Origin: a candidate division WOR-1 bacterium RIFOXYB2_FULL_45_9
Lineage (GTDB): Bacteria > Margulisbacteria > WOR-1 > O2-12-FULL-45-9 > XYB2-FULL-48-7
Assembly (NCBI GenBank): GCA_001771575.1
Contig: MEUD01000001.1
Location: forward strand, 894,815 to 958,814
DNA: 64,000 bases
Reading direction: 5' to 3'
The notes below the pieces were generated by a model. The model worked only from the letters and a program-made list of their open reading frames with translations. It did not search any database and was not told where the DNA came from. The position numbers and the translations under genes were made by a program. Of this stretch, positions 24,586 to 31,148 are shown piece by piece; position 1 is the first letter of the stretch; the number at the start of each line of letters is the position of its first letter.

Positions 24586-25104
24586 ATGAAGTCACAGCGC
24601 CCAGCGCGCCGCATCCGATCCGGATTTACGACAATCGAACTGATCATCGTCATGGTCGTTATGGTGATCGTCGCGACCTACACTTTTATTTCCATTACCC
24701 CTTATCGCGGGGTCAAGCTCGACTCAGCGGCAAAAAAAGTCGCTTTTGACCTCTCCTACGCCAGGAACATGGCACAAGTCATGACCGAATGGTACGGCGT
24801 CACTTTTGAAGCGGCGCCGAACAATTCATACACCATTTACAAAACCGACGGGACGACCGATTCCATCATAGCCGACCCCTCTGGAGGACCATTTAGTGTC
24901 AATCTCGCCCAGGTCTTTAACGGGGTTGAGATCTCGGTTATAAATATCACTGGCGGCAAAAAGGTTGAGTTCAACCCTTTGGGAGCTCCCTACATCAACA
25001 AAGGAGGGGCCGCGGTTTCTTCTGAAGCGACCATCACCTTAAGCTTCCAGGGAAGGACCAAAAACATTTACATCACCCCAAACACCGGGAGAATTCACGA
25101 CTGA
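24586..25104 (+). CDS. Type IV pilin-like protein (GspH/FimT type)
   Basis: The 172-aa prepilin has a basic leader and a class III cleavage site before FTTIELIIVMVVMVIVATY (Gly-1, Glu+5), then a beta-rich globular domain. This pattern fits a minor pilin or pseudopilin that primes pilus assembly. It heads a run of four overlapping genes with pilin-like N-termini. Confidence 0.85.
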   Translation: MKSQRPARRIRSGFTTIELIIVMVVMVIVATYTFISITPYRGVKLDSAAKKVAFDLSYARNMAQVMTEWYGVTFEAAPNNSYTIYKTDGTTDSIIADPSGGPFSVNLAQVFNGVEISVINITGGKKVEFNPLGAPYINKGGAAVSSEATITLSFQGRTKNIYITPNTGRIHD

Positions 25105-25487
25105 TGAAAAAAGGCTTTTCCTTAATTGAACTGGTCATCGCCATCGCTCTCCTGGGGATAGTCATGTATTCCTTGATCACGATCTACATCACCACCGGGC
25201 TGAAAGGCTCGACCGCCGAGATCTACACCGTCGCCCAATATCTGGCGGCGGAAAAGCTGGAGCAAACGCTCGGCGGGTCGTTTGCCCTGGTAACCAACCA
25301 GGCGCAGACTAATTTTACCGGCGACTTGAATCAGTACACTTTTCAGATCAGTTTCAACTACACCACTCCCGCAGATTTCAACGCCAGCGTCACCGGACCG
25401 ACTGATTATAAAAAAGTCGCCGTTTTGATCCGTCATCCCAGACTGGGGAGCCCGCTTGAGCTCGCGGTCATCAGGGCCAATTACTAA
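25104..25487 (+). CDS. Minor pilin (PilV/GspI type)
   Basis: The 127-aa protein has a short leader and the prepilin motif KKGFSLIELVIAIALLG (cleavage after Gly, Glu+5). A tyrosine/threonine-rich C-terminal domain follows. The ATG overlaps the stop of the preceding pilin gene (TGATG). The family helps start pilus fibres. Confidence 0.85.
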   Translation: MKKGFSLIELVIAIALLGIVMYSLITIYITTGLKGSTAEIYTVAQYLAAEKLEQTLGGSFALVTNQAQTNFTGDLNQYTFQISFNYTTPADFNASVTGPTDYKKVAVLIRHPRLGSPLELAVIRANY

Positions 25488-25488
25488 C

Positions 25489-25968
25489 ATGAAAAAAGGT
25501 TTTTCTTTAATTGAAAGCATCATTGTAATAACGCTTCTCGGCCTGATGTTTTCCGGGATCGCGATCTTTATCCAGGAAAGTATCAACTCCTGGCTCTTTT
25601 TCAGCACGCAAAAAGAGCTCCTCTCCGAAGCAACCGGGGCGATGAGCCGAATGACCAGGGAGCTAAGGCTGGCCGATAAAAACGTCAACATCATCGTCTA
25701 CACCACAACGCAGGTGACCATTCGTGACGTTCAGGGAAATGAGATCACCTTCGCGCAGGACGGCGCTTATCTTAAACGGAACAACGATATTCTCGCCGGA
25801 AACCTGACCGTTCCCGGCGGGCTGTATCTCCGCTATTTGAAAGAGGACGGGACCGACGCCTCAAACATGAACGCGGTCCGCTCCATCTGGATCCGTTTGA
25901 CCATGGTCAGGGAAAATAGCAAAGTAGTCCTTGAATCGTCGGCTAAAATAAGGATAAAAAAACTATGA
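25489..25968 (+). CDS. Minor pilin (PilW/GspJ type)
   Basis: The 159-aa protein starts MKKGFSLIESIIVITLLGL, with the class III prepilin signature and Glu+5. The ATG at 25489 is preferred to an upstream start at 25456 because it is one base after the previous stop and gives a standard leader. The globular part begins near TQKELLSEATGAMSRM, as in GspJ-like pseudopilins. Confidence 0.85.
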   Translation: MKKGFSLIESIIVITLLGLMFSGIAIFIQESINSWLFFSTQKELLSEATGAMSRMTRELRLADKNVNIIVYTTTQVTIRDVQGNEITFAQDGAYLKRNNDILAGNLTVPGGLYLRYLKEDGTDASNMNAVRSIWIRLTMVRENSKVVLESSAKIRIKKL

Positions 25969-27164
25969 ATAGACGCGGAGTAACTCTGGTTGCGGTAATG
26001 TTTATCATTTTGACAATGACCATGCTGGTCATCTCCTTAAGTTCCCTCTTTTACTCCAGCAGTTCCCTGGCGGTCAGGGGCTATTATTCCCTCAAGACCT
26101 TCTATATCGCCAACACCGGCCAGGAATATTATTTCAAGCTATTAAGCCAGGACCTGGACTGGTCAAATCCCCCTTTCCCTGAAACAAAGGCTTTTAACGG
26201 CGGTTATTTTTCAATCGCCACATCCAGCGCATCCAAGGATTCCATCGTCGTAACCGTCACCGCCGTCCTAACCGCGGAGGGAACAACCTATATTCGGATC
26301 ATCAGGCCGTCATACGGCAGGTCCATAGGAAGCGGCTGGGCTAATTATTCACTATATTTCGCCGGCACCGCGATCGGTGATGATGAAACGGACATAGGGA
26401 ACAACGTCGTCATCAACGGAGACATTTTCTTAAATTCCGATGTCGACCTGGGAAGCAACGTTGATGTCAACGGTGATCTATTGGCCACCGGCTGGATCGA
26501 CGGCTCAACCAGCGAGGTCGCCGGCGTCGCCAGTCCGTATGAAGCGACCCCGGAAGGGTTCCCGGTCCTTGATACGACTTATTACGACGCGGAGATCGCC
26601 AGTGCGGAAGCCCTCCCACCCCTAAACCGGACCCTATCCGGCACCATCAGCGGAACTTATTATGTTAACGGCAATTTAATAATCGGCCAAAACTCCACTG
26701 TTCAAAATAACGCTAAGTTTGTCGCTTCCGGCAATATCACGATCAACAACAATGTCAACATCGGGGACAACACAACTTTCATCTCCGGCGGAACGATCAC
26801 CATCAACAACAACGTCGAGATCGGGACGGGAGGTCTCTTTTTCGCTTCGATCGGCATTTCGATCAATAATAATTTGGAGGCCGGCACCGTCACGGTCGGC
26901 GGAGGAACCACCTTCCTGACCCCCGGTTACGTTGACATCAACAACAACTGCGACATCGCCGGTTTCATATACGCCGGCACATCAGTTGATATCGGGGAAA
27001 ACGCCAACTTTACCGGGAACATCATTGGCGGGTTCCTGGACAGCATCGGCAACAACAGCACGATCACCCTAAGCGGCACCGTAGTCGATTATGACGCCAT
27101 TTCCGGTCTCCCCGCCACAACCGATGCCAGTATCGACGTGACCGGCTGGGAAGAGATCTACTAA
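25965..27164 (+). CDS. Pilin-associated protein with predicted beta-solenoid (399 aa)
   Basis: The N-terminus (RGVTLVAVMFIILTMTMLVI) resembles PilX/GspK-type pilins but lacks the usual Glu+5. Residues about 230-385 hold repeated strands of the type INNNVNIGDNTTF, with recurring Asn-Asn and Gly every 16-24 residues, like bactofilin or pectin-lyase solenoids. It overlaps the minor pilin gene by four bases. It may be a tip adhesin-like component or envelope scaffold; that role is inferred. Confidence 0.7.
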   Translation: MNRRGVTLVAVMFIILTMTMLVISLSSLFYSSSSLAVRGYYSLKTFYIANTGQEYYFKLLSQDLDWSNPPFPETKAFNGGYFSIATSSASKDSIVVTVTAVLTAEGTTYIRIIRPSYGRSIGSGWANYSLYFAGTAIGDDETDIGNNVVINGDIFLNSDVDLGSNVDVNGDLLATGWIDGSTSEVAGVASPYEATPEGFPVLDTTYYDAEIASAEALPPLNRTLSGTISGTYYVNGNLIIGQNSTVQNNAKFVASGNITINNNVNIGDNTTFISGGTITINNNVEIGTGGLFFASIGISINNNLEAGTVTVGGGTTFLTPGYVDINNNCDIAGFIYAGTSVDIGENANFTGNIIGGFLDSIGNNSTITLSGTVVDYDAISGLPATTDASIDVTGWEEIY

Positions 27165-27182: not shown

Positions 27183-27210
27183 TTGACAATCGTCCCTTTT
27201 CCGATATAAT
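27183..27210 (+). promoter_or_regulatory. Consensus promoter of the pilMN-O-P-Q operon
   Basis: Perfect TTGACA (27183-27188), a 16-base spacer and perfect TATAAT (27205-27210). The -10 box ends eight bases before the ATG at 27219, so the message should be leaderless or nearly so. Confidence 0.82.
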
Positions 27211-27218
27211 TACCGTAA

Positions 27219-28820
27219 ATGCCGTGGAAAAGATCAGCCTTAGGGATTGACCTCCGTGTAAGTTCAGTTAAAGTGGTCGAGGTCGAAATTACTGAACAAG
27301 GCCCGACCGTAAAGAACTGGGGCATTACCGAAATTCCCGCCGAGCTTTTGAATAAACACCCCGAAATTGAAAACGCTAAAGCCGACGCCCTGCGCAAACT
27401 TCTCAACACCCACAACATCAGAACCACTGAAGCCTATGTGGTCGCCGGAGGCGAAGTAACCGCCGTCAAATTGGTCCCTATGGTCGGCGTCGGAGAATCG
27501 GAAGTCGCGGAAGCGATCAAATGGAAGTTCGCCCAGGACATCCCCTTCCCGATCGAAGAAGCGATCGTCGACTTTTATCCTCTCCCGAAAGAAAAGACCC
27601 CGGCCGGAGAAAAGACCAACTACGTCTCCGCTTGCCTTAGCACTAAAACGTATCATCAGTATCAGCATATTTTATCCAAAGCCGGCCTAAATTTGGCCGG
27701 CATCAACGTTCTCCCGCTCGCCCTGCAAGAACTCTATCAGGAAGAACTGGCGAAAAGCGCCGATAAATTGGTCGCGGTCATTTACCTGGGAAAACGAAGC
27801 ACCAATATCAGCATTTTCCGCAAAGGGATCTTTGAGTTCAACCGCGAGCTGGCGATCGGCGGTGACGCGATCACCCTGGCGATGTCGGGGATCCTGGTCT
27901 CCGCCGAGGGAAAGATCGAAATTTCCCAGGACGAAGCCGAAAAAATAAAGATCAGCCAGGGAATCCCAATAAGCGTTGAAAATTATCCCAAAGTTCGAGA
28001 CATCCCGATCGCCCAGCTTCAAGCGATGGTTAGGCCCGCTCTGGAAAAGGTCTTGAACGAGATCGCCCGCACAATTGAGTATTACAAGGGGCAGAGCGGC
28101 GAAGCAACCGTCAATAAAATTATCCTGACCGGCGGGAGTTCGCTTACCCCAAATTTCAAGGAATTTCTGGAGGCCGGGCTGGGGATCCCAATTGAAACCC
28201 CAAAACTCAAGTTTGATCACAATCCGCGGATCTCCGCCGCGATCGGCGCGGCGCTGGCCGGCAAAAACAAGATCAATCTTCTGCCGGAAGATGTAAAAAA
28301 CCGCTGGAAATTGATCTCCAGCAAATTATTAAAGCCGATGTTTTTGTTCCCCGCTTTTTTTGGGGTACTGGCCGCCATCTATTTTATCTTCTGGATCCAG
28401 GCGGTCACCCTCCTGCAGGAGATCAATTACATAAACAGCAAGTTAAGCCTCTACAAGCCGCGGCTAACCCAGTTTGACCGGATCGAAAAGGCGTCGGCCG
28501 AAGAAGAACAAAAAAAGCTGATGATGACCTCCTTTAAAGATAAACGGACCCAGATCCCGAGGGTTTTTGAAGAGATCAGTAAATTCATCCCGAACAGCGT
28601 CACTATCAACAACATTAAACTGACCATTAACAGCATCCACCTTTGGGGGACCGCCTTTAAATACGGCGACTCGGCGGAAAACACCCTTTCCCGGTTTGTC
28701 CTGGCCCTTTCGGCCTCTCCGGTCCTCGAAGACGTCCAGCTGGTCCAGGCGGTAAAAAACTATCAATACAACCTGGAATCGTTCAATTTCGAGATCGTCG
28801 GAATAATCAAGGAGCGATAA
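27219..28820 (+). CDS. PilM-PilN fusion protein
   Basis: The 533-aa protein joins two pilus proteins. Residues 1 to about 345 are PilM, an actin-like ATPase (ALGIDLRVSSVKVVEVE, VAVIYLGKRSTNISIF, ILTGGSSLTPNF). KINLLPEDVKNR (about 351-362) is the PilN peptide that normally docks in the PilM groove. A membrane helix (about 372-393), coiled coil and ferredoxin-like PilN domain follow. In most species these are separate genes. It is translated from a start-codon-proximal promoter and overlaps pilO (TAATG). Confidence 0.9.
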   Translation: MPWKRSALGIDLRVSSVKVVEVEITEQGPTVKNWGITEIPAELLNKHPEIENAKADALRKLLNTHNIRTTEAYVVAGGEVTAVKLVPMVGVGESEVAEAIKWKFAQDIPFPIEEAIVDFYPLPKEKTPAGEKTNYVSACLSTKTYHQYQHILSKAGLNLAGINVLPLALQELYQEELAKSADKLVAVIYLGKRSTNISIFRKGIFEFNRELAIGGDAITLAMSGILVSAEGKIEISQDEAEKIKISQGIPISVENYPKVRDIPIAQLQAMVRPALEKVLNEIARTIEYYKGQSGEATVNKIILTGGSSLTPNFKEFLEAGLGIPIETPKLKFDHNPRISAAIGAALAGKNKINLLPEDVKNRWKLISSKLLKPMFLFPAFFGVLAAIYFIFWIQAVTLLQEINYINSKLSLYKPRLTQFDRIEKASAEEEQKKLMMTSFKDKRTQIPRVFEEISKFIPNSVTINNIKLTINSIHLWGTAFKYGDSAENTLSRFVLALSASPVLEDVQLVQAVKNYQYNLESFNFEIVGIIKER

Positions 28821-29332
28821 TGTTTATCTTTAAATTGTCAAACAGGGAAAAGAACCTGCTCATCGTCATGGCGATATTCATCTCCATTTATTTTTTCGAC
28901 AACCTTTTCTTTTCTCCGATCCTCCAGGAGGTTAAGCGCTCTAAAGACAAGCTTCGGGACTTTCGCATGGAGCTCCGGGTGGCCGAAGGAAAGATCAGGA
29001 TCCTGGAAACATTGCAAAAAAAAGTGGGGATAATATACGACGAAAGCTCAAACACCCGCCAGACCCGGGCCCTGCAAGCTCTGCAGAACATCTCCTATGT
29101 TACGACCAAATCAAAGCTCAACCTGATCACGGTCCGTCCGATCCTTGGCCAGGAACAAGGGAACCTGAAGTTTGGCCTTTCCTGCACCGGTAAATATAAA
29201 AACCTCTATGACTTCATGGTCTATTTGAACGAACTCCCAATGATGGTTATAATAGATGTGCTTGACTGCACCTCCAATGGAGCGGTCGACCCGATACTTG
29301 ATGTCAAGATGACTGTAACGGCCTATTACTAA
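28820..29332 (+). CDS. pilO: Type IV pilus assembly protein PilO
   Basis: The 170-aa bitopic inner-membrane protein has an N-terminal helix (NLLIVMAIFISIYFFDNLFF), a coiled coil and a C-terminal ferredoxin-like domain (YDFMVYLNELPMMVII). It pairs with PilN in the alignment complex between PilM and the secretin. The ATG overlaps the PilM-PilN stop by one base. Confidence 0.85.
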   Translation: MFIFKLSNREKNLLIVMAIFISIYFFDNLFFSPILQEVKRSKDKLRDFRMELRVAEGKIRILETLQKKVGIIYDESSNTRQTRALQALQNISYVTTKSKLNLITVRPILGQEQGNLKFGLSCTGKYKNLYDFMVYLNELPMMVIIDVLDCTSNGAVDPILDVKMTVTAYY

Positions 29333-29353: not shown

Positions 29354-29863
29354 ATGAGAATAATAATATTATCAATTGCCTTGATCGCTTCCGTGTTTTA
29401 CGCGGCCTATACTTATTGGCCGGGCGCCTTCCCTTTCATCAAACAGCCTCAACAGCAAAAAACTGCACCGGCGGCTCATCTTGTCATGCAAACCCCCGCT
29501 CCGGAAAAAACGGTAGCCGGCACAACGGAAGCCGCTCCAAAACCCACACTCCCACCCCCGCCATCACCAGAAGCGGAAAAAGAAAAAGAGCTGGTCGACC
29601 CATTCGCGTTGAGGATCAAAGTCAAGGGAGTAGGCGAAGCCGCTCCCGCCAAGCCCGTTTCCACGGAACCAAAGGAGGCGGTTCCCCTCCCAAAACTGGA
29701 AGGGATCTGGTGGGACGCGGATATGAAAGTCGCTTTTATTTCAGGCCAGGCGATTCCGGTCGGTGGATCGATCATGGGATGGAAAGTCGTCGCTATTAAT
29801 AAAGATCGGGTCGTAATTCGAAAAGGATCATCGGAAAAAACCTTAAAAATGGAGGAAAAATAA
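29354..29863 (+). CDS. PilP-like pilus lipoprotein/linker
   Basis: The 169-aa protein has an N-terminal membrane segment without a lipobox Cys, a Pro/Ala/Lys-rich linker (about 35-85) and a small beta-domain (PKLEGIWWDADMKVAFISGQ) like the PilP domain that binds the secretin N0 region. Position between pilO and the secretin supports the call. Similarity is weak, so it is named PilP-like. Confidence 0.72.
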   Translation: MRIIILSIALIASVFYAAYTYWPGAFPFIKQPQQQKTAPAAHLVMQTPAPEKTVAGTTEAAPKPTLPPPPSPEAEKEKELVDPFALRIKVKGVGEAAPAKPVSTEPKEAVPLPKLEGIWWDADMKVAFISGQAIPVGGSIMGWKVVAINKDRVVIRKGSSEKTLKMEEK

Positions 29864-29864
29864 C

Positions 29865-31148
29865 ATGAAAAACAATTTTGGAGCCACGATACTATGCTTA
29901 ACGCTTCTATTCTGTCTGCTCGGTGGATCGGCGGTCCCGGCTAAAGAGATGGAGAACGTCAGTATCAGCAAGGGAAAAGTATATATAAATTTGAGGGATG
30001 CCGACGTAAAATCTGTCCTTCAGATCTTCGCCAAAGCGACCAAGGTCAACATTGTCGCGGCGGACGACGTCACTGGAAAGGTCACGGTCACATTTTCCGG
30101 TATCGCCCCGAAGGAAGGTCTTGAGGCGGTCTTGCGGACCAAAGGGCTGGATTGGTTTGAAGAATCGGGGACGATCTTTGTCTCGACCAAAAAGATCATG
30201 CGCACCTATTACCTGGCCAACGCCAAACCGACCGATCTCCAAACCACGCTGACCACCATTCTGCCGGCCGGCAGTACCGTGACCGCCGATGACGCTTACA
30301 ACGTTTTAGTCGTCCAAACTTCTTCGGATTACCTCCCCCGGATCGAGCGATTGATCAAGGAGCTCGACGTGCCGCCGATCCAGGTCATGGTCGAAGCCAA
30401 GATCATTGAGATCCGCTCCAGCAACAACGCCAATCTGGGGCTTGACATCAAAGCGACCAAGGCCACCAACGCCAATGACGTGGTGCAGACCAAGAACTTG
30501 TCCGGCCGTCCGACCGACAACCCCGCCCAGGGGCTTTATGGCCAGATCTTTAAGGCATATACCGACGTGAACGTGGAAAGCTATCTTTCCGCCATGGCCA
30601 CCAACACCAATTACAATGTCATCGCCACGCCTAAGATCACCACCATGAACAACAAGGAAGCGACAATATTGATTGGCGCTAAATACGGCTATAAAACGAC
30701 CGTTATCTCGGACACGACCACCACCCAGGTAGTCAACTTTCTTTCCGTTGGAACATCGCTCTCCATCACTCCAAATGTTTCCAAGAACGGTTTGATCAGG
30801 ATGAAGGTCGCCCCTAAGGTCAGCGAGGGGTCGGTAGTTGGCGACCTGCCGCAGGAAAACACGACCGAAACAAAGAACGAAGTCGTCGTCAATGATGGTC
30901 AAACTTTCGTCATCGGCGGACTGACCAAAGACAAAGACGTCCAGACTGATTACGGGGTTCCTTTTTTGATGGATATTCCGCTGGTCGGCTCACTTTTCCG
31001 GAAGTCGGTCATCACCAAGGAAAAAAACGAGCTTCTGGTCTTTGTCACCCCCCATATCGTGACCAAGGAATTTTTAGACTCAATGAACAAACCGAAGGAT
31101 GAATTGGAAAAAAAGAGCGCGGAACAAAAAGCCAAACTAATCCATTAG
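29865..31148 (+). CDS. pilQ: Type IV pilus secretin PilQ-like
   Basis: The 427-aa protein has a signal peptide (ILCLTLLFCLLGGSAVPA), an N0/STN-like domain (VYINLRDADVKSVLQIFAK), an N1-type repeat (TYYLANAKPTDLQTTL) and a secretin domain (VMVEAKIIEIRSSN, IATPKITTMNNKEA, VPFLMDIPLVGSLF). It forms the outer-membrane pore for the pilus. It is shorter than typical PilQ (over 600 aa) because AMIN domains are missing. GGAGGAAA at the end of the upstream gene serves as ribosome binding site. Confidence 0.9.
   Translation: MKNNFGATILCLTLLFCLLGGSAVPAKEMENVSISKGKVYINLRDADVKSVLQIFAKATKVNIVAADDVTGKVTVTFSGIAPKEGLEAVLRTKGLDWFEESGTIFVSTKKIMRTYYLANAKPTDLQTTLTTILPAGSTVTADDAYNVLVVQTSSDYLPRIERLIKELDVPPIQVMVEAKIIEIRSSNNANLGLDIKATKATNANDVVQTKNLSGRPTDNPAQGLYGQIFKAYTDVNVESYLSAMATNTNYNVIATPKITTMNNKEATILIGAKYGYKTTVISDTTTTQVVNFLSVGTSLSITPNVSKNGLIRMKVAPKVSEGSVVGDLPQENTTETKNEVVVNDGQTFVIGGLTKDKDVQTDYGVPFLMDIPLVGSLFRKSVITKEKNELLVFVTPHIVTKEFLDSMNKPKDELEKKSAEQKAKLIH

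Follow-up and report, generated by a model that had tools for sequence, protein, structure and literature searches.

A fused PilM-PilN gene shared across a class of Margulisbacteria, probably of a type IVa pilus, with a leaderless-type promoter

The window, the whole 64,000-nucleotide stretch of DNA analyzed here, comes from candidate division WOR-1 bacterium RIFOXYB2_FULL_45_9 of the Margulisbacteria (GenBank assembly GCA_001771575.1, contig MEUD01000001.1, positions 894,815 to 958,814 of the forward strand); the genes and sites given below with window coordinates lie on its + strand. The gene pilMN (27219..28820) is one open frame from ATG to TAA and encodes a fused PilM-PilN protein of 533 amino acids, in which PilM is followed by a short linker, an INLLP peptide, a basic stretch, one hydrophobic segment, and PilN. 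The PilM domain (residues 9-325; 27243..28193) matches PF11104 (PilM_2) with 105.7 bits against a cut-off of 27 and the pilM model TIGR01175 with 137.3 bits, only just above its cut-off of 133. The INLLP peptide (residues 352-356; 28272..28286) precedes a single predicted transmembrane segment (residues 375-393; 28341..28397), the top 19-residue hydropathy window of the protein at 2.28, an arrangement expected of PilN. The PilN periplasmic domain (residues 448-524; 28560..28790) matches PF05137 with 36.6 bits (cut-off 22.8). When the window protein was aligned with 31 of 35 candidate relatives (L013 and L015, which are cut at the locus end, and L029 and L030, which are longer or weak, were omitted), PF11104 matched 32 of 32 members and PF05137 matched 29 of 32 at an E-value of 0.001. 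A profile of this family searched against the PDB retrieved PilM chains with E-values down to 5.4e-57 and the PilN chain 3jc8_Na at 6.6e-6. The original prediction of a PilM-PilN fusion, with INLLP directly downstream of PilM in the same chain, is thus borne out, as both domains exceed their Pfam cut-offs in one frame and the peptide begins at residue 352 where PilM ends at 325.

Four prepilin-like genes (24586-25104, 25104-25487, 25456-25968, and 25965-27164, together 24586..27164) lie upstream of pilMN, the first three recognized by prepilin-signal matches and the fourth by eye only, from its N-terminus. Beyond its prepilin-like N-terminus, the fourth (25965-27164) carries a repetitive region whose beta-helix/bactofilin matches are weak. 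Downstream, a Shine-Dalgarno-like AAGGAG (28809..28814) precedes a PilO/GspM-like gene of 170 amino acids (28820..29332; T2SSM 19.9 and PilO 17.1 bits, both below cut-off). An ORF of 165-183 amino acids directly follows the fused gene in all 23 orthologs with sequence at that position, two further ortholog loci ending before it, and the PilO-like name was profile-tested in the window only. Next come a PilP/GspC-like gene of 169 amino acids (29354..29863), named mainly by its position and with only a weak GspC_delta match (E 0.017), and a secretin of the PilQ/GspD type with 427 amino acids (29865..31148; PF00263 148 bits; TIGR02515 232.7 and TIGR02517 215.2, both below cut-off). The PilO-, PilP-, and PilQ-like partners stand in the right order, with scores that are below the curated cut-offs and fall between the pilus and type II families.

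Family searches found one PilM match and one PilN match in the genome, and it is very likely, judging from sequence comparison, that the single chain stands in for both PilM and PilN of the type IVa pilus alignment complex. The genome also encodes one PilT, the type IVa retraction ATPase, at 430 bits (cut-off 319.1), and PilT was found in 28 of the 31 genomes of the class. In this genome, pilT does not adjoin pilMN. Elsewhere in the phylum the arrangement can be different from that seen here, as in four cases (G044:C10, G054:C80, G055:C7, and G045:C2) pilT shares a contig with a fused gene of a diverged kind, the two being 1.6-4.4 kb apart. An ATPase, a platform protein, and a pilin occur together at another locus (L096). 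The ATPase is best matched by PilB (623.9 bits, cut-off 675.65), with GspE close at 611.2; the platform protein by GspF (351.6, cut-off 424), with the PilC models at 321.1 and 288.2 (cut-off 700); and the pilin by GspG (40.3 bits, cut-off 88.85). Scattered elsewhere in the genome are another secretin, another PilC/GspF, and a short GspE-like ATPase, so the pairing of PilMN with PilB and PilT is one that we infer. These scattered parts resemble a second filament system divided among L097, L130, and L131, which between them hold the short GspE-like ATPase, a GspC-like gene (by eye) with the secretin, and a short GspF with a pilin; by eye, no PilM, PilN, or PilO was seen in the surroundings of these components.

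The second-best reading, that pilMN acts in type II secretion as the L component, is unlikely, though the one-chain layout is the same as that of GspL. It also draws on the GspF- and GspG-like best matches of the platform protein and pilin at L096, on the ambiguous scores of the minor pilins and secretin, and on the GspL model, which weakly matches the fused gene in 9 of the 74 phylum genomes (best 38 bits, cut-off 65). However, that model (TIGR01709) does not match the pilMN protein at an E-value of 0.1 and exceeds its cut-off in none of the 74 genomes, GspL_C (PF12693) has no match in this genome, the PDB profile search gave 5.4e-57 for PilM compared with 1.8 for GspL (4pht), and PilT is present above its cut-off. 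By profile scores, assignment to the GspL families TIGR01709 and PF12693 was rejected. Comparison of the family profile with E. coli GspL, HofM, and HofN was uninformative (6.4, 12.9, and 17.8% probability, respectively). A type IVa pilus therefore appears to be the likeliest machine, and the pilus alignment complex named in the original prediction is supported as the most likely setting by the PilM scores, by PilT, and by the lack of GspL_C in the genome.

The INLLP peptide is presumably the PilM-binding peptide of PilN, which normally sits in a groove of PilM, as the chain in PDB 5EOU supports. Across 23 orthologs, N353, L354, and P356 do not vary and position 355 is Leu in 57%, while the five residues ahead of the peptide are 26-48% conserved. 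Between the GAA at the end of PilM and the Asn of the motif, the alignment columns give 7 residues in 24 of 32 members, 8 in 7, and 9 in 1. As read from the alignment, the joint holds its length but varies in sequence, while the peptide is conserved in sequence; nine diverged rows have a looser motif, such as LSLMP or INLLK. Because the linker is short and near-constant in length, it would fit docking of the peptide in cis, but docking may instead occur in trans. An AlphaFold model of the window protein alone had a pLDDT of 34.8, too low to read the fold or the docking, and a literature search for the INLLP motif together with PilM found no paper. It is highly improbable that PilN is additionally made as a separate protein, through an internal start or cleavage of the one-chain product, given that the linker is conserved in length rather than sequence; a separately started PilN beginning at INLLP is unsupported, since codons 326-356 contain no in-frame ATG, GTG, or TTG by eye.

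Relatives of pilMN carry the same fusion. Combining the family searches, 46 fused PilM+PilN frames were found in 36 of the 74 phylum genomes, including 28 of the 31 genomes of the class, this genome among them; by the stricter count requiring both domains to exceed their own cut-offs, 39 fused frames remain in 31 of the 74 genomes. A search with the pilMN protein itself matched 37 of the 74. Frames were scored as fused when PilM and PilN rows shared contig, strand, and frame length and lay no more than 1500 bases apart, using all 55 PilN rows and 56 of 77 PilM rows; the 21 omitted PilM rows were marked below cut-off, and none was on a contig with a PilN row. Nine genomes have more than one fused frame. 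Among the three class genomes lacking a fused frame, the PilM part reaches the locus end in one (G058), and the other two (G047 and G051) have no PilM match. Ten PilM rows have no PilN in the same frame; some of these are about 400 amino acids long and match the profile only partly, and these may be FtsA. In six genomes, G011 not counted, a PilN row occurs in a frame of 294-323 amino acids without an adjoining PilM row. G011, which lies outside the class, has a fused PilM-PilN gene (L067) whose PilM part contains an in-frame TAG, which may reflect a pseudogene, an error, or recoding. The single locus from a scan of genome contigs (L031) is, by eye, FtsA next to an FtsZ-like ORF and was not used, and 38 stretches in viral contigs that fit a pattern yielded no confirmed case. 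A sequencing or assembly error that fused two genes, the reservation attached to the original prediction, has a negligible probability and is ruled out because relatives carry the same fusion, with stop-free frames in the class and 21-84% identity to the window protein over the 31 aligned relatives; nothing was found in its support, and the lone TAG in G011 points the opposite way. As far as the genomes compared can tell, the join of PilM and PilN is real and old in this lineage.

Immediately upstream of pilMN, a -35 box TTGACA (27183..27188) and a -10 box TATAAT (27205..27210), separated by a spacer of 16, form a perfect promoter (27183-27210; 12 of 12 consensus positions). No other perfect site with a spacer of 15-19 occurs in the window, and shuffled sequence gave a mean of 0.01 (100 shuffles). 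Transcription generally starts about 7 nt past a -10 box. With 8 nt between the end of this -10 box and the ATG, the pilMN mRNA is probably leaderless, with its 5′-end at or beside the ATG. There is no Shine-Dalgarno word ahead of this ATG, and a probably leaderless transcript would account for its absence. Thus, the full-consensus promoter and the missing Shine-Dalgarno sequence of the original prediction are both as described, though they were given as two facts and are probably one.

A similar site, with 11 or 12 of 12 matches, lies in the same place, 7-10 nt from the ATG, in 20 of 25 orthologs. For each of these, none of 300 shuffles reached its score, and all 20 lack a Shine-Dalgarno word. 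The remaining five (L011, L012, L023, L024, and L025) lack the promoter site, and two of them have Shine-Dalgarno-like words. The test covered these 25 orthologs and nine diverged paralogs, with a null in which 60 bases were shuffled singly; one row (L027) is uninformative, as the start used was not a start codon, and no promoter of this kind at this spacing was found in the eight paralogs tested soundly. At L036, such a promoter lies farther upstream and a Shine-Dalgarno word precedes the ATG (by eye). Most of the diverged paralogs at L026-L028, L066, L075, L076, and L090 have, by eye, a GTAAACT-like box shortly upstream of the start. Within the window, 8 of 47 ORFs have a perfect TATAAT whose end is 5-11 nt ahead of the ATG, compared with 0-2 ORFs at each of 15 other offsets; allowing five of six matches weakens the contrast (14 vs. 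0-8 ORFs). A Shine-Dalgarno word was found in 9 of the 47. These ORFs were defined mechanically, with a minimum of 150 amino acids counted from the first ATG; some starts are therefore incorrect, and the same starts were used in the shifted control. Genome-wide, there are 17 perfect promoters, vs. 1 for a reversed control pattern, and in 5 of the 17, pilMN included, 6-11 nt separate the promoter from the first start codon of a frame that is 60 amino acids or longer. These counts suggest that leaderless genes are a widespread habit of this genome. A literature search for leaderless genes with Margulisbacteria found no paper. The leaderless-type promoter would account for the absent ribosome site at pilMN, and methods that predict gene starts in this lineage should allow for leaderless genes.

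It can be proposed that a strong promoter of its own drives transcription of pilMN into a leaderless mRNA, while translation of the downstream PilO-like gene would start from its Shine-Dalgarno sequence. In the resulting chain, the PilM groove would still be occupied by the INLLP peptide, which would hold PilM at the membrane beneath the PilN-PilO ring, and PilMN would link the assembly ATPase to the periplasmic ring, like GspL in type II secretion. The 1:1 stoichiometry and tethered ring of the original prediction follow from there being one chain. The stoichiometry adds little, however, because Thermus PilM and PilN, which are separate proteins, already associate in equal numbers, at about 1:1 and 3:3 by native gel and 2:2 in earlier work, according to a passage of PMC6325625. 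We tentatively propose, as a possibility well short of even, that a retracting type IVa pilus took up the GspL design independently, that the near-fixed linker keeps INLLP docked in cis so that PilM could not be released, and that the conserved leaderless promoter would give pilMN a start free of a Shine-Dalgarno sequence, apart from the Shine-Dalgarno-driven gene that follows.

The fusion of PilM and PilN is known in kind, and what is new is a further lineage that carries one. A class-wide conserved case is thereby added to a fusion known in type II secretion and some pili, and it offers a natural test of whether PilM must release PilN for pilus extension and retraction.

Among known systems, the PilM-PilN chain of PDB 5EOU, which we take to be a man-made construct from Pseudomonas aeruginosa, resembles pilMN in placing the N-terminal peptide of PilN behind PilM, and the family profile aligns across the joint to INLLP. 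It differs in having 12 residues (manual count) from the GAA position to the Asn of the motif, compared with 7-9 in the pilMN family. The PilM-like part of pilMN also matches the Amuc_1101 family (NF045709) with 119.9 bits, but this is far under the cut-off of 650, and the match stops at residue 327. In type II secretion, PulL/EpsL is described in passages of PMC10191384 and PMC6325625 as a PilM-PilN fusion, and a passage of PMC3815138 has two regions of GspL corresponding to PilM and PilN. In both GspL/PulL/EpsL and pilMN, one chain runs from a cytoplasmic part like PilM through a single transmembrane helix to a periplasmic part like PilN; pilMN differs in that it scores as PilM, has INLLP, and belongs to a genome with PilT. 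The type IV pili of Campylobacterota have a fused pilM-pilN as well, in most of the pilus clusters according to a passage of PMC11870540, though the lineage differs in all likelihood and the likeness is one of description only. Likewise, a passage of PMC6916266, citing Melville and Craig (2013), gives Clostridioides difficile a fused PilM-PilN; this organism differs in being a monoderm, and the same source suggests that its PilN uses another motif for the interaction.
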